A stretch of DNA of 64,000 nt from Methanomicrobium sp. W14 (lineage in GTDB: Archaea > Halobacteriota > Methanomicrobia > Methanomicrobiales > Methanomicrobiaceae), in contig NZ_JAGGMM010000002.1 in NCBI RefSeq assembly GCF_017875315.1, forward strand, positions 310,001 through 374,000, written 5' to 3'. Shown here in pieces: positions 2,669 to 11,745 of this stretch. How positions within the stretch are numbered: the first letter of the stretch is position 1; each line of letters starts with the position of its first letter. The position numbers and the translations under genes were made by a program. The notes beneath the pieces were generated by a model. That model saw only the letters and a list, made by a program, of their open reading frames with translations, was not told the DNA's origin and did not search any database.

Positions 2669-3767
2669 AGATGATTTTGCGGGCGGACTGAAGAGGCTTG
2701 GCATAGAGTTTGTGGTGTCGCTTCCGTGCGACCGGACAAAAGACCTGTGCTCTTTGATGGAGAGAAACTTTCATTACGTGAACATTAACCGCGAGGAGGA
2801 CGGTGTCGGCATATGTGCAGGGCTTGCCCTTTCGAAGAGGAGGTTTGTCCTTCACATGCAGAGTTCAGGTCTCGGAAACTCGCTTAACGCAATGATGTCT
2901 CTTAATTATCTCTACGGTCTGCCGCTTCCCGTTGTTGCAAGCCTGAGGGGGTATTATAAGGAAAAAATTCCTGCACAAATCCCTTTCAACAGCAAAATCC
3001 CCGGTGTTCTGGATGCACTTGGAATAAAATACACGATAATCGAAGACTCTTCAGGACTTAAGAAGGCGTACCGGATAATAGATGAATGCTTCAAAAATTC
3101 TGAAATTCATGTAATCCTTATATCCCCTAAAGTATGGGAGGGAGAACCCTGCACGTGCGAATCCAAATTTCCCGGGCGCAGCCGTGATATAAGCCTGTCT
3201 TTTGAAAGAGAGATAAAAGAGCCTGTTCTTACAAGACGTGACGCAATAAAAATAATCTCTGAATACCTGTCCGGTGAACCGGCCGTATGCAATATAGGTG
3301 TTCCCTGCAAAGAGCTATACGCCGAAAATGACAGGCAACAGAACTTCTATATGCTTGGGAGCTACACCCAGGCGACGCCGATAGGTCTTGGTCTTGCCCT
3401 CGGGCAGAAGAAGCACGTGTATGTGATAGACGGCGACGGGAGTCTCCTCGGGACTGCCGTTTTGCCGGTCGTCGCGGCTGAAAACCCAAAAAACCTGACG
3501 ATATTTGCGCTTGACAACGGGGCTTTCGGCAGCACGGGAATGCAGATTACGCATTCATGGAACGTGTGCAGCCTTGAGCTTATGGCTGTTGCCGCCGGGA
3601 TAAAAGATACTGCAATGGCCCGGACAGGAGACGATCTGAAAAGGGTTCTTTCATCCGGGAAGATACCTCAGTTTGTCCATGTAATCATAAAACCCGGAAA
3701 TTCGGATGCAAAAAATATCCCGCTTTCACCGTCAGATATAATGGAAAGGTTTGAAAAAAGCATATAA
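2661..3767 (+). CDS. comDE: Sulfopyruvate decarboxylase, fused ComD-ComE
   Basis: The 368 residues contain both halves of the enzyme. ComD-like sequence covers about 1-165 (start LKRLGIEFVVSLPCD, then INREEDGVGICAGLAL). ComE-like sequence covers about 190-368 with the thiamine-diphosphate/Mg motif GDGSLLG...LDNGAFGSTG. In Methanocaldococcus these are separate subunits; the fused form is usual in Methanomicrobia. It decarboxylates sulfopyruvate to sulfoacetaldehyde in coenzyme M synthesis. The ATG at 2661 overlaps the end of cysteate synthase and has GGGTGA upstream. A hairpin followed by a T run lies just downstream. Confidence 0.88.
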   Translation: MYEDDFAGGLKRLGIEFVVSLPCDRTKDLCSLMERNFHYVNINREEDGVGICAGLALSKRRFVLHMQSSGLGNSLNAMMSLNYLYGLPLPVVASLRGYYKEKIPAQIPFNSKIPGVLDALGIKYTIIEDSSGLKKAYRIIDECFKNSEIHVILISPKVWEGEPCTCESKFPGRSRDISLSFEREIKEPVLTRRDAIKIISEYLSGEPAVCNIGVPCKELYAENDRQQNFYMLGSYTQATPIGLGLALGQKKHVYVIDGDGSLLGTAVLPVVAAENPKNLTIFALDNGAFGSTGMQITHSWNVCSLELMAVAAGIKDTAMARTGDDLKRVLSSGKIPQFVHVIIKPGNSDAKNIPLSPSDIMERFEKSI

Positions 3768-3813: not shown

Positions 3814-5028
3814 TCCGAACATCTCCCGGCTCTTTTCAAGGGCCGAGATTGCAGGAAGCTTTTTTCCTGTCAGAAATTCTATGCAGGCACCTCCGCCCGT
3901 TGATATGTGGCTGAACCTGTCGTTTATACCAAGTGATTCGGCGACGACTGCGGTGTGCCCTCCGCCGACAACCGAAAACTCCGACTCTGATGCAGCCTTT
4001 AAAAGTTCGAAGGTTCCTGTTGAAAAAAGGTCCTCTTCAAAAAGCCCTGCAGGGCCGTTGAATACGACTGTCCCCGAGTTCCTGAGTATATCGGTGAACG
4101 GGACAAGGGAATCAAGGCCGAGGTCGAGGACAGGATATTTATCAGGTATTTTATCTACGGAAAACTCGCCTCTTGTCCCGTCTTCATTTCTAACCGCGAC
4201 ATATTCCGGGAGAATCACCTTGTCTTTAAACTTTGAAAGAATTTCTGCGGCTTTTTTAATTTCCCCGTAGTAACCGAGTTTTTTTATCAGGTCTGATGAC
4301 GGGCATCCTATGTCAACTCCCTCTGCCAGGAGAAAGACGTTTGCAACGACTCCGACCACAACAACCCTGTCGGCGATGCCGCATTCAAGGACGTTTCTCG
4401 CAACATTCATGGAGTCGTCTACCTTCGTCCCCCCGAGGACAAAGGTGACGGGCTTCGGTGAATCGGAAAACACCTTTGAAAGGCAGGACACCTCTTTTTC
4501 CATAAGTGTCCCCGCAACGGACTTCATAACGTACGGAAGGCCTACCATTGTCGGCTGCGAACGGTGTGCAGTCCCGAAAGCATCGTTTACGTATATGTCG
4601 CCGAGCTTTGAAAGGCCGCGTACAAGATGGGTGGACGCAGCCTCTTCAGGAGTCATTTTGATGTTTTCTTCTGCATTGAACCTCACGTTTTCAAGCATAA
4701 GGATGTCCCCGCAGTCCATCTTTTTTACCGCATCGCGTGCACAGCGCCCAAAAATGTCGTCGATGTATTCAACAGGTCTTCCCAGAAGGTGTTCAAGTCT
4801 TTCGGCGTGGGCTTTAAGAGTCGTGAAGTCCTTTTTCTGCGGGCGGCTCTGGTGAGTTACGATTACCACTTTCGAGTCCTGAAGGTTCTGGACCGTAGGA
4901 GTATGCTCACGGAATCTTTTGTCGTCAAGAATCGTGTTTGACGCAGGGTCTATGGGAGAATTGAAGTCAACACGTAAAATGACGGTTTTTCTGGCGGTTT
5001 CTATATCATCAAGCGTTCCAAATTTCAT
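3805..5028 (-). CDS. pgk: Phosphoglycerate kinase
   Basis: The 407-residue protein matches PGK throughout: N-terminal VILRVDFNSPID, the VIVTHQSRPQ segment, MLENVRF, YVNDAFGTAHRSQPT, and the C-terminal nucleotide-binding GGGHTAVVAESLG and STGGGACIEFLTG segments. It interconverts 3-phosphoglycerate and 1,3-bisphosphoglycerate in the cytoplasm, mainly for gluconeogenesis in a methanogen. It is monocistronic here, convergent with the coenzyme M operon. The length is normal for archaeal PGK and all key segments are intact. Confidence 0.95.
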   Translation of the reverse strand: MKFGTLDDIETARKTVILRVDFNSPIDPASNTILDDKRFREHTPTVQNLQDSKVVIVTHQSRPQKKDFTTLKAHAERLEHLLGRPVEYIDDIFGRCARDAVKKMDCGDILMLENVRFNAEENIKMTPEEAASTHLVRGLSKLGDIYVNDAFGTAHRSQPTMVGLPYVMKSVAGTLMEKEVSCLSKVFSDSPKPVTFVLGGTKVDDSMNVARNVLECGIADRVVVVGVVANVFLLAEGVDIGCPSSDLIKKLGYYGEIKKAAEILSKFKDKVILPEYVAVRNEDGTRGEFSVDKIPDKYPVLDLGLDSLVPFTDILRNSGTVVFNGPAGLFEEDLFSTGTFELLKAASESEFSVVGGGHTAVVAESLGINDRFSHISTGGGACIEFLTGKKLPAISALEKSREMFGKK

Positions 5029-7734: not shown

Positions 7735-8658
7735 ATGGAGCAGATTATCCTTGTTTCCGGCCTGAAAAAAACCTTCGGCAAAAAGCCGGTTCTGTCAGGA
7801 ATTTCCTTTGATGTGAACAGAGGAGAGGTTTTTGGTTTTCTTGGGCCAAACGGAGCCGGAAAGACTACAACTATGAGAATCCTTCTTGGACTTTTAAAGC
7901 CTGATTCCGGGAAAGCTTTTGTATTCGGTGAAGACCTCGGTGTTTCAGACAGTTCACGTTCGCGTGTGGGAGTCCTGATGGAAAACAACGGGCTTTTCGA
8001 GAATTTTACTCCGCTTGAAAATCTTGAGTACTACGCCGGAATATACGGTGTTCCTGATGCAGGAAAAAGAATAGAATACCTTCTTGAGCTGACAGACCTT
8101 GAGGCGGAAGCAAACGCTAAGGTAGGAAGTTTTTCAACAGGTATGAAAAGAAAGCTTGGAATAGCAAGAGCAATATTACACAGTCCCGAGGTCCTTTTTC
8201 TCGACGAGCCCACCTCTGCCCTTGACCCGCAGGCGCAGAAGATGGTACGGGATTTAATTCAGCATCTTGCAAATGACGAGTCCATGACTGTTTTTCTGAG
8301 TTCGCATAATCTCGACGAGGTGCAGAAAATATGCAGCAGGGTCGCGATACTTCACGGCGGAGAGATAAAGGCGCTTGATTCTGTAGAAAATCTGAGAAGA
8401 GGCAGTGAGGGCAGAAGAGTGAGGATAAAACTTTCTGACGTCTCAAAAACGGATAAAGCCTTTTCATTAATCGCGGGAAATCCTGAATATACGGGTTTTC
8501 AGGAAACCGGCGGGGGTTTTTCGGTTAACCTGCACTCAGGCTCAGCCTCGCCTCTTATATGCAGTCTTTGCAGCGCCGGAGTAGGTATTGAGGAGGTTTT
8601 GACTGACAAACGTTCTCTTGAAGATATCTATATTGAAATTATGAAAGAGGAGGCCTGA
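7735..8658 (+). CDS. ABC transporter ATP-binding protein (ABC-2 exporter type)
   Basis: The 307-residue ATPase has Walker A GPNGAGKTT (about 38-46), signature FSTGMKRKLGIARA, Walker B VLFLDEPTSALDP and the switch histidine in SSHNLDEV. A C-terminal extension of about 80 residues is typical of drug- or antibiotic-export ATPases of the CcmA/DrrA type. It pairs with the permease 5 bp downstream, and the two should form one exporter in the cytoplasmic membrane. The substrate cannot be told from the sequence. Confidence 0.92.
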   Translation: MEQIILVSGLKKTFGKKPVLSGISFDVNRGEVFGFLGPNGAGKTTTMRILLGLLKPDSGKAFVFGEDLGVSDSSRSRVGVLMENNGLFENFTPLENLEYYAGIYGVPDAGKRIEYLLELTDLEAEANAKVGSFSTGMKRKLGIARAILHSPEVLFLDEPTSALDPQAQKMVRDLIQHLANDESMTVFLSSHNLDEVQKICSRVAILHGGEIKALDSVENLRRGSEGRRVRIKLSDVSKTDKAFSLIAGNPEYTGFQETGGGFSVNLHSGSASPLICSLCSAGVGIEEVLTDKRSLEDIYIEIMKEEA

Positions 8659-8663
8659 TTAAA

Positions 8664-9383
8664 ATGGATCCGCTTTTTGTTGTAGCCAGAAAGGAGATAA
8701 AGCAGATATTAAAAAACAAGTCGCTTATAATCGGGGTTATCTTTTTTATGGGAATATTCGGAGGGATTACTTCTATGGGTGCCGTGATGTCTGCTGCGGA
8801 GGGCAGTTCAGGTGTTATTACGTCATCTCTTGATTCCCTGATAGTCTACCTGATTCTTGTTATGGGAATATTTACGGGTTATTTCTTCTCGTCTCAGGCT
8901 TTTTTGAGAGAGAAGACAGACGGGACTATAGAGACGATACTGTGCTCGCCTCTGTCCTTAAGAGAGGTCTGGCTCGGAAAGGTCATCGGCGTAACAGTCC
9001 CCGCGTATATTGTATCCCTGGTAATTGCCGTGATACTTGTTGCAGCGGCGAACTTCGGTTCTGGTTACCTGGTTCTGCCTTCACCGGCGATGATATTGTA
9101 CCTTCTGATTGTGGTTCCCGTATATATCGGGTGCGCAACAGGTCTTCTTGGTTTTGTCCAGCTCCTTTTAGGGATGAGAGAAAACCAGATTGTCAATTTC
9201 GTCATGATATTCGGATTTATTGTCGCCATCTCGTTTTTCGAGTCTATGATAGCCGATAATGCTATAACGGTCTCGTTTTTGCTTGTGATAGAAATGGCTG
9301 CTGCGGGTGTAATCCTTATGGGAATAGTCCGATATTTAACCGGTTTTTTGAGCCGCGAAAAGATTGTTACGACAATACCATAA
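8664..9383 (+). CDS. ABC-2 type transporter permease
   Basis: The 239-residue protein starts with the cytoplasmic VVARKEIKQILKNKS segment common to ABC-2 permeases and has about six hydrophobic helices spread over the rest. The conserved FFSSQAFLREKTDGTIETILCSPLS region after helix two is typical of the family. It is cotranscribed with the ATPase just upstream (5-bp gap). The transporter is probably a homodimer of this subunit with two ATPases. Substrate unknown. Confidence 0.88.
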   Translation: MDPLFVVARKEIKQILKNKSLIIGVIFFMGIFGGITSMGAVMSAAEGSSGVITSSLDSLIVYLILVMGIFTGYFFSSQAFLREKTDGTIETILCSPLSLREVWLGKVIGVTVPAYIVSLVIAVILVAAANFGSGYLVLPSPAMILYLLIVVPVYIGCATGLLGFVQLLLGMRENQIVNFVMIFGFIVAISFFESMIADNAITVSFLLVIEMAAAGVILMGIVRYLTGFLSREKIVTTIP

Positions 9384-9513
9384 TTTTTTTAAATTTTCAG
9401 CGGGATTTTAAAAGCAGATTATACCGGTTTATACAACCTTTTAACCAGATTGTTCAATTCATGGAAGTCTTGCATTTTATTCATATATATAGGCATCATG
9501 CAGATTATTATTC

Positions 9514-9782
9514 AGAGTGTCAGGGAAAGAATAAATAAAACGAAAAGACCTGAAAAAGAAATTTTTTAAGTCACGTTTCGTTTTCTTGTTCTTTTCAGTG
9601 GCACTGGTAACCAGAAAACAACCTCCTGAATTAGAAACCAGTTAAGGCAAACCAGAAAATCCAGCATAAAAAAACCACAAGAATCACCAAAAACCAATTT
9701 GTGAATCAAAAAACCCCCAAATCAAAAAAAGGCGCCTTTGTGAAGATAAAATGCAGGGGTGCCGTAAAAAAATCATTTTTTA
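9514..9782 (+). ncRNA. Putative small RNA, copy 1
   Basis: A TATATATA box at 9484-9491 predicts a start near 9514. The unit ends in GGCGCC (9731-9736) facing GGTGCC (9758-9763), which pair with one G-U in RNA, followed by an A/T-rich tail. Within it AACCTCCTGAA is complementary to a Shine-Dalgarno sequence, and CCAG recurs several times in A-rich surroundings. Start and end are estimates. No protein-coding frame is conserved with copy 2. Unlike any RNA family I can name. Confidence 0.5.
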
Positions 9783-10080
9783 TAGCATCTGTATTTTTAA
9801 TAAATCCTGTTTTGACTGGAAAATCCTGATGCATGAAATTAATATGGTATATTTGCACTCTCTTTTATATGGAATATATAATCCGGTAAAAAAATGAATA
9901 GATAATCAGGCGGCTATTTTGTGAGTCCGGTAACTATAGTCTTATGCGGGACGGCTTAAGTCTGGATGTTTCCCGTTCATGTTAAAAAAACCCGTTTTTA
10001 CAACCTTTTAACCAGATTGTTCAATTCTTTGAATCCAGGTATTTTATTCATATATATAGATATCATGCAGAGTATTATTC

Positions 10081-10347
10081 AGAGTGTCAGGGAAGGAGCA
10101 GAAAAGAGGGACATGAAAAAAGACCAGCAGAGTTCCTGAGTTGTTCTGTTTATTTCATCTGGCACTGAAAACCAGATAAAAACCAAAAAACCTCCTGAAT
10201 GAAACCAGTTAAGGCAAACCAGAAAAATCCAGCATAAAAACCACTACAATCACCAAAAACCAATTTGTTAATCAAAAAACCCCCCCAAAAAAAGAAGGAC
10301 ACCTTTGCTCAAGAGCTGAAAAAATACTCAAAAGGTGTCCTTTTTTT
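10081..10347 (+). ncRNA. Putative small RNA, copy 2
   Basis: A TATATATA box at 10051-10058 predicts a start near 10081. The unit closes with a perfect 12-bp stem, AAGGACACCTTT (10295-10306) and AAAGGTGTCCTT (10331-10342), running straight into a T run. Compared with copy 1 the stem bases differ yet pairing is kept, which supports a structured RNA end. The AACCTCCTGAAT anti-Shine-Dalgarno segment and the CCAG repeats are conserved. Ends are estimated. Confidence 0.55.
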
Positions 10348-10350
10348 AAT
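10295..10350 (+). terminator. Strong hairpin terminator of sRNA copy 2
   Basis: Perfect 12-bp inverted repeat with a 24-nt loop followed by TTTTTTT. It lies about 130 bp beyond the 3' end of the opposite-strand acetyltransferase gene and points rightward. Confidence 0.7.
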
Positions 10351-10479: not shown

Positions 10480-10983
10480 TCAGATCTGTTTGTACATCCA
10501 TACTTCATCGATGTATTCGACGTTTTTTTTCATGACACCGGGAAAAATGCCGCATTTCAAAAATCCGTTTTTTTCGTGGAAATGTATGCTGCCGGTATTT
10601 TTTGAGGATATGCCGGCGATTACAACTTTGATTCCAAAATCTTTTCCTTCACTCTGAAGGGAGTTCAGCATCTCTTTTCCGATTCCTCTGCCTGTATATC
10701 CGGGTTTTATGAAATATGTGATCTTGGCTGTATGAGAAAATGACCGGACCGGACTATGCGGGCGAAGCATTCCGAATCCGAGAATATTCCCTTTTTCGTC
10801 CTTTACAGAAACCGAAGGGTATTTTTGCGATATTTCAAGAAAGTTGTCAAAAAATTCATATGAAACTTTATTTTCCGGGTATGCAGCGAAACTGTTCTCT
10901 ATATACCAGTTGAAAATGTCAATTATTCCGTTCCTGTCGTCTTCGCAGATTTTTCCATAGTTTAACCCGTCCATTTCTCTCAT
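10480..10983 (-). CDS. GNAT-family N-acetyltransferase (phosphinothricin acetyltransferase-like)
   Basis: The 167-residue protein has the acetyl-CoA loop GYTGRGIGKEML (about 104-115) and the N-terminal DIFNWYIENSFAAY and C-terminal HEKNGFLKCG segments typical of the phosphinothricin/amino-acid acetyltransferase branch. It should transfer acetyl groups to an amine substrate that I cannot specify. It lies downstream of, and on the same strand as, a MarR regulator. A perfect 19-bp palindrome just upstream of its start (11011-11029) indicates specific repression. Confidence 0.85.
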   Translation of the reverse strand: MREMDGLNYGKICEDDRNGIIDIFNWYIENSFAAYPENKVSYEFFDNFLEISQKYPSVSVKDEKGNILGFGMLRPHSPVRSFSHTAKITYFIKPGYTGRGIGKEMLNSLQSEGKDFGIKVVIAGISSKNTGSIHFHEKNGFLKCGIFPGVMKKNVEYIDEVWMYKQI

Positions 10984-11110: not shown

Positions 11111-11635
11111 TTATATTTTCTTATTTTCGGTTAATGCCAGGGATTTTTTTCTCATGATGAGACATGAATCAAAAAGGTTTTCGAATTCGGATAATGTTTC
11201 GATGAGATTTCCGAAGCTTTCGTCATCCATTTTGTCTGCAAATTCAGAAATTTTTTTGTTCATCATATCATGGTAGTTTTTGTGCCACAAACAGGCTTTT
11301 TCCCCGGATTCAGTAAGAACGGCATTGATTTTTTTACCATCCTCGCCGGCTTTCACTCTTTTAATGCAGCCTTTTTTTTCAAGTTTTAATGCCGTCTGGG
11401 ACACTGCACCTTTTGTAATCCCAAGCCTTTTTGCAGCATCTGACATCCCTTCATCAGGGAACCTGCCGAAGATATCTATAAGGTGCACCTCAGATGCATG
11501 GAGATATACGCCGCCTATGTCGACCGGCTCTTTTTCTATTGATGCGGCTTTGTTCAGAAGTTTTATGACCGAATCAAAAAGTATGCCGGTGTCCTTTGAA
11601 GTCCTGTCTGGTTTTGTTGAAGGATTTTCGGGCAT
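11111..11635 (-). CDS. MarR-family transcriptional regulator
   Basis: A winged-helix core runs through ASEVHLIDIFGRFPDEG, then AAKRLGITKGAVSQTALKLEKKG (recognition helix) and a wing with RVKAGEDGKKI. The C-terminal helices would form the dimer interface. I start it at the ATG at 11635 (174 residues) because the longer frame adds 32 basic/hydrophobic residues unlike the family and would reach to within 15 bp of serS. No clear ribosome binding site is visible, so it may be leaderless. It probably controls the acetyltransferase through the palindrome at 11011-11029; the ligand is unknown. Confidence 0.8.
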   Translation of the reverse strand: MPENPSTKPDRTSKDTGILFDSVIKLLNKAASIEKEPVDIGGVYLHASEVHLIDIFGRFPDEGMSDAAKRLGITKGAVSQTALKLEKKGCIKRVKAGEDGKKINAVLTESGEKACLWHKNYHDMMNKKISEFADKMDDESFGNLIETLSEFENLFDSCLIMRKKSLALTENKKI

Positions 11636-11745
11636 TACAAGTAATAAGACCCAGCAGGTGAATAATCGTTTCCCGCATTTAAGCCTTTTTGAAATGTGCT
11701 TCACGCAAATATAATCCCGTATGATATACAAAATTAAAGGAAGTT

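Follow-up and report, generated by a model that had tools for sequence, protein, structure and literature searches.

The alpha-r14 sRNAs, among them NfeR1 of Sinorhizobium meliloti, keep an anti-Shine-Dalgarno (anti-SD) motif conserved while their stems vary (PMC10746234). Among methanogens, masking of ribosome binding sites has been proposed for sRNA154 and sRNA41 of Methanosarcina mazei (reviewed in PMC5867862). For the regulatory proteins, a point of reference is ArnA/ArnB of the Sulfolobales, an FHA module with phosphorylation-controlled regulation (PMC6509490, PMC10470591). Here we describe two sibling units located in a 64-kb window of the Methanomicrobium sp. W14 genome, the window being the whole stretch of DNA that was analysed. 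We estimate at roughly 0.62 the probability that they encode stress-regulated anti-SD sRNAs, placed under an ArsR/FHA factor set by a kinase and a phosphatase, that would act by masking Shine-Dalgarno (SD) sites; this value gives most weight to the anti-SD sRNA reading, and requiring every inferred step to be true would reduce it. To our knowledge, gene regulation in the Methanomicrobiales is almost unstudied, and the logic is known for very few of the archaeal sRNA families.

The units occupy positions 9439-9782 and 10006-10350, and each is predicted to yield an RNA of ~270 nt. Both comprise, in this order, an operator, a TATA box, a 5' hairpin, an A-rich body that contains AACCUCCUGAA, and a terminal hairpin, and all their features given below lie on the plus strand. 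A repeat search detected a 108-nt block at 9423-9530 and 9990-10097 (88% identical, spacing 567) and further blocks of 26 nt at 100% and 63 nt at 87%, with an overall spacing of 566-568, while a BLAST comparison of the units over their whole length gave 78% identity (E = 1e-66). These results bear out the initial annotation, which had proposed two tandem units 567 bp apart sharing a TATA-type promoter, an A-rich block and a terminal hairpin, all of which we could place at defined coordinates. The unit coordinates that it gave were correct, but an upstream extension, from 9440 and 10007, was needed to take in the operator. Neither this palindrome nor the long stem at the 5' end (9516-9605) was in the initial annotation, and the two proved to be the most informative features. 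In the window, the units have as neighbors an ABC-2 type transporter pair on the plus strand, and a GNAT acetyltransferase and a MarR-type regulator on the minus strand (7735-9383, 10480-10983 and 11111-11731).

We then consider the promoters. The operator reads TTTAACC-AGAT-TGTTCAA in unit 1 (9440-9457; a match without mismatches that aligns free of gaps to 16 other units) and in unit 2 (10007-10024; pattern match and alignment), its right half being degenerate in both relative to the TTTAACC-N4-GGTTAAA palindrome present in most units. Pattern scans and alignment place the BRE/TATA region at 9472-9491 (ATTTTATTCATATATATA, with a fixed 16-nt spacing to TTATTCAGAGTG) and at 10039-10058, the TATA element CATATATATA itself covering 9482-9491 and 10049-10058. 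Exactly 30 bp past the start of this element lies TCAGAGTG in both units, at 9512 and 10079. Because of the archaeal TATA-to-start distance, transcription likely starts about the TCAGAG sequence, at ~9512-9516 in unit 1 and ~10079-10083 in unit 2. The predicted sRNAs would thus span 9512-9782, the start being set by the TATA spacing and the end by the hairpin and T-run, and 10079-10350, as judged from sequence, repeats and predicted folding.

BLAST and promoter-pattern scans recovered two other copies in this genome, arranged in tandem (G000:C3:177889-178073 and 178503-178666) downstream of a gene for a LysE-type transporter, for a total of four. Other Methanomicrobiaceae carry 1-4 copies per genome, often in tandem: four each in G006, G007 and G013, two each in G004 and G011, and one each in G003, G019 and G016; genera g3 and g7 are among those with copies. 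Copies adjoin the LysE-type gene in G003 (one), G004 (two, tandem) and G006 (three, tandem); the neighbors at these LysE-linked loci differ from those in the window, and a contig scan of the genomes with the neighboring ABC permease as query found nothing. In G004, G006 and G007 the promoters of tandem units are near-identical within one genome, probably as a result of repeated tandem duplication or gene conversion. The initial annotation had suggested a covariance search of relatives, and a covariance model built from 17 units indeed recovered homologs across the Methanomicrobiaceae, with strong matches (E below 1e-11) in 10 genomes. Only weaker matches, with partly different promoters, appeared in the rest of the order, and in a phylum sample of 393 genomes the seven with a match at E <= 1e-4 all belong to the Methanomicrobiaceae. 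The window gave zero Rfam matches at the gathering threshold, and under a permissive threshold the best scores were far below the cut-offs; for guide RNAs (C/D, H/ACA), only chance-level snoRNA matches below threshold were seen. A search of the open-access literature found no description of the family. The homologs in several genera, the co-varying 5' stem described below, the conserved, mostly unpaired ACCUCC and the lack of a conserved frame, of an Rfam match and of transposon ends support the earlier suggestion of an undescribed duplicated regulatory RNA.

Next, we studied the structure of the units. An alignment of 17 of them runs without a gap over 100 columns, from the operator through the TATA box to the 5' arm, with fixed spacing, and in every unit a 5' stem starts at or just past the predicted start site. 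In unit 1 the stem-loop covers 9516-9605, with arms at 9516-9545 and 9576-9605 (inverted repeat and folding), and in unit 2 folding places it at 10083-10166. Examples of its paired arms are GUGUCAGGGAAAGA/UCUUUUC..UGGCAC, GUGUUAAAGG/CCUUUGGCAU and GUGCCAAAGAC/GUCUUUUGCAU. Pair counting on a plain MAFFT alignment was weak because the stems vary in length (52 of 500 shuffles reached the covariation score), and an arm-swap test was used in its place. Paired with their own partners, the 5' arms totaled -324.7 kcal/mol, compared with a permuted mean of -245.6 (sd 13.5); none of 20000 permutations was as low, a p-value that is inexact since relatedness stays in the permutations, and the same 0/20000 was obtained with 13 representatives. 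The arms of the 5' stem therefore co-vary. At the other end, sequence and folding define a terminal hairpin with a T-run at 9730-9782 in unit 1 (hairpin 9730-9763), and an inverted repeat does so at 10290-10347 in unit 2 (arms 10290-10306 and 10331-10347). The compensatory changes previously pointed out in these hairpins concern two sequences only and are weak on their own; it is the 5' stem that shows strong covariation.

The units have a conserved TATA promoter, 3' hairpins and no conserved frame, and each may give a free-standing transcript. Among 18 units we found no conserved reading frame, as their ORFs vary in frame, length and residues, and the frame of unit 1 is broken by a TAA in unit 2, in line with the earlier statement that the two share no protein frame. 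A coding explanation was rejected on these grounds. Overall, the units are very probably genuine non-coding RNA genes.

To approach the control of these genes, we examined the palindrome in the wider set of genomes. In the 17-unit alignment TTTAACC starts at a constant distance, 42 columns before CATWTATATA. The palindrome also occurs elsewhere in 11 genomes, notably around one conserved cluster. This encodes a PP2C phosphatase, a protein in which an ArsR-type HTH is fused to an FHA domain (ArsR/FHA), and a large Ser/Thr kinase that bears a NosD-type repeat region; lipoprotein, glutaredoxin/thioredoxin-reductase and rubrerythrin genes come next. In the 80 Methanomicrobiales loci holding the ArsR/FHA gene, AACC-N4-GGTT was counted 41 times in the intergenic DNA around the FHA genes, compared with 0/0/0 for three rearranged controls, and 25 of the 80 loci have an exact copy no more than 320 bp ahead of the ArsR/FHA gene, mostly at -101 to -153 (controls 0). 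What is new here is a fixed-distance palindromic operator common to the units, the PP2C/ArsR-FHA/kinase cluster and the region upstream of the ArsR/FHA gene. A regulator that controls its own gene typically reveals itself by a conserved site ahead of that gene, and because the palindrome is conserved in such a place we propose the ArsR/FHA protein of the kinase/phosphatase cluster as the most likely operator-binding factor. An alternative candidate is an XRE-type regulator with the palindrome upstream of its gene pair (L157:2790; L096, L097, L101). This copy lies at G000:C2:307790 (L157:2790), 2.2 kb left of the window, and there, as in L096, L097, L101 and L154, it sits between the XRE-type gene pair and a divergent operon for an ABC ATPase, a GTPase-like protein and methanogenesis-marker-like proteins. 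Overall, we consider it probable that the ArsR/FHA kinase-phosphatase system controls the units through the palindrome. In archaea, a site upstream of the TATA box is the place of an activator and not of a repressor, and the position of the operator suggests activation. Our search of the open-access literature retrieved neither an ArsR/FHA regulator in methanogens nor a link between ArsR/FHA proteins and sRNAs.

In genus g6 and families f3 and f5, an operator and promoter like those of the units drive mRNAs for small secreted or lipoprotein-like proteins, each of which opens with a hairpin close to its predicted start. As mRNAs under the same operator and promoter also start in this way, the 5' hairpin is a regulon-wide feature, and it may guard against 5'-3' decay. 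The same operator-TATA-5' hairpin arrangement was observed before small secreted or lipoprotein-like genes at L137, L138, L127, L139 and L140, in other Methanomicrobiales genera and families. A second RNA-like unit (class II), also with the operator and the 5' hairpin, lies between the Ser/Thr kinase and lipoprotein genes in G000, G003, G004 and G006 (L145:3345-3815; L146:6282-6750; L155, ~3050-3525, minus strand; L149:2647-3115). It carries a conserved perfect SD sequence, CGGAGGTGATG, in which nine bases are perfectly complementary to the 16S tail, then a frame of 2-4 codons and, further downstream, conserved CAGGTAGGATCA and TCGACTCCA-type motifs; GAGGTGATG is also present in G011_u2 and G016_u1. 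The class II RNA may act as a decoy or a sponge, or may provide a leader peptide. In three genomes an ORF of 28-30 aa with a single transmembrane helix (e.g., MMQKEAKIALGIHLTLIVIFGVLISALA) adjoins operator sites (L145, ~4158-4245; L151, minus strand; L149, ~3480-3575), and it probably codes for a small membrane protein that belongs to the regulon and lacks an annotation.

The proposed mode of action centers on the segment AACCTCCTGAA, located at 9620-9630 in unit 1 and at 10189-10199 in unit 2. The 16S gene of this genome ends in GGATCACCTCCTAACG (tail AUCACCUCCU), and ACCUCCU is common to this 3' end and the units. Of 18 bodies, 14 contain ACCTCC, with 16 copies in all, compared with 1.76 expected and a maximum of 7 in 300 dinucleotide shuffles; the units that lack it are u4 of this genome, G004_u2, G011_u2 and G016_u1. 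Predicted ensembles give it a mean unpaired probability that mostly exceeds 0.8 across the family and is about one half in the two window units (0.51 and 0.46). In all, 14 of the 18 units present an SD complement, mostly predicted to be accessible, that equals the core of the 16S 3' tail. A second C-rich tract is predicted to be unpaired at 9714-9718 in unit 1 (AACCCCC; mean unpaired probability 0.98) and at 10280-10286 in unit 2 (AACCCCCCC). SD usage was judged by position, as a first test was uninformative: its reversed-motif control itself contains GGAGG. For 73 genes of this genome we counted 30 SD-like 5-mers at -18..-7 of the start codons, compared with 5 at -40..-29 and 2 inside genes. 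Start codons thus carry SD-like 5-mers at the right distance, and therefore an RNA exposing ACCUCC could mask them. No clear gene of this genome had an exact 12-nt complement of the anti-SD segment (TTCAGGAGGTTT) at its start codon, and a genome search for extended complements gave no convincing strong single target. On balance, we consider it fairly probable that the units act by pairing with SD sites.

Other explanations have to be weighed against this one. CsrB/RsmZ RNAs sequester CsrA through GGA motifs, and the repeated unpaired AACCYCC tracts of the A-rich body could in the same manner titrate an RNA-binding protein with no pairing to mRNA. The presence in each RNA of several near-identical C-rich unpaired motifs, including AACCCCCC tracts unlike an SD complement, would fit this, as would the duplicated genes and the lack of an evident extended mRNA target; however, the motif most over-represented relative to chance is ACCUCC, which copies the 16S tail, and not CCCCC, so we regard titration as unlikely. 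We know of no CsrA-like archaeal protein for C-rich tracts. The ACCUCC segment might instead be directed at the ribosome, either by competing globally with 16S rRNA or by pairing mainly with the class II RNA as an initiation buffer. The class II RNA does possess the operator, the 5' hairpin and the conserved CGGAGGTGATG, which can pair with the 16S tail as well as with the RNAs of the main family (class I), but the pairing amounts to six to seven base pairs only, and class I-class II duplexes were predicted on CGGAGGTG for G004_u1 only and fell in other places elsewhere, which leaves us doubtful of such a role. We also consider, as an unlikely scenario, that one kinase/phosphatase/FHA regulon makes two RNA flavors with a similar promoter and 5' hairpin, an anti-SD RNA and a perfect-SD RNA with a 2-4 codon frame, which together could set the free initiation capacity as an RNA-level rheostat of translation under phospho-signalling.

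Two further explanations do without a regulatory RNA. The units could be 5' leaders of mRNAs or code for short peptides, given that their promoter and 5' hairpin drive small secreted-protein mRNAs in g6, f3 and f5 and that short frames cross the CCUCC segment in G003 and G004_u1. We find this improbable, as the frames disagree between units, that of unit 1 is stopped in unit 2, ribosome sites are absent, and the units end in a hairpin with no same-strand gene after it. The dispersed and tandem copies might also be taken for a mobile or decaying MITE-like repeat without function, but promoter, stem and motif are kept across several genera, several genomes conserve the place beside the LysE gene, and terminal inverted repeats are lacking; transposon ends, which the initial annotation had named as a finding that would speak against it, were not seen. 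We give this idea almost no credence.

The stress-regulated anti-SD sRNAs that we favor could work as follows. The window units are siblings within a family of structured non-coding RNAs from the Methanomicrobiaceae; each would be transcribed from its own promoter and controlled by the TTTAACC-N4-GGTTAAA operator, whose center lies about 64 bp before the start site. Binding of the ArsR-type winged-helix/FHA protein to this operator would make the RNA output follow kinase/phosphatase signalling. The RNA would start with a stable 5' hairpin, probably a stabilizer, continue with an A-rich, largely unstructured body exposing ACCUCC and C-tracts, and end in the terminator hairpin. ACCUCC, a copy of the 16S anti-SD, would pair with the SD sites of a set of mRNAs and lower their translation, the duplicated copies providing a higher dose or a wider target range. 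Upon a stress signal the sRNAs would thus probably turn translation down. If true, this would connect Ser/Thr kinase signalling of a eukaryote-like kind with anti-SD sRNAs that hydrogenotrophic methanogens hold in several copies, define for the order a regulon of kinase, phosphatase, redox enzymes, small envelope proteins and sRNAs, and offer an operator motif and a regulator ready to test.

Such a system would be an archaeal counterpart of the anti-SD sRNAs known from bacteria. Like alpha-r14/NfeR1, the family consists of sibling RNAs, trans-acting in the bacterial case, with conserved unpaired CCUCC-type motifs, several per RNA, and a conserved upstream promoter element. In the bacterial RNAs three hairpins carry CCUCCUCCC where they are unpaired, whereas the archaeal units have one 5' stem and a terminator, with ACCUCC in the A-rich body, and a TATA promoter with a palindromic operator; the likeness is functional and not based on sequence, and the units are not members of alpha-r14. 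With sRNA154 and sRNA41 they share an intergenic location in a methanogen and a proposed masking of ribosome binding sites, but those RNAs are nitrogen-controlled and appear to belong to another family. Finally, our candidate would resemble ArnA/ArnB as an archaeal FHA regulator that depends on a kinase and a phosphatase, and the ArsR/FHA protein differs from them in joining an ArsR-type HTH to the FHA domain and in a putative output that includes sRNA genes.
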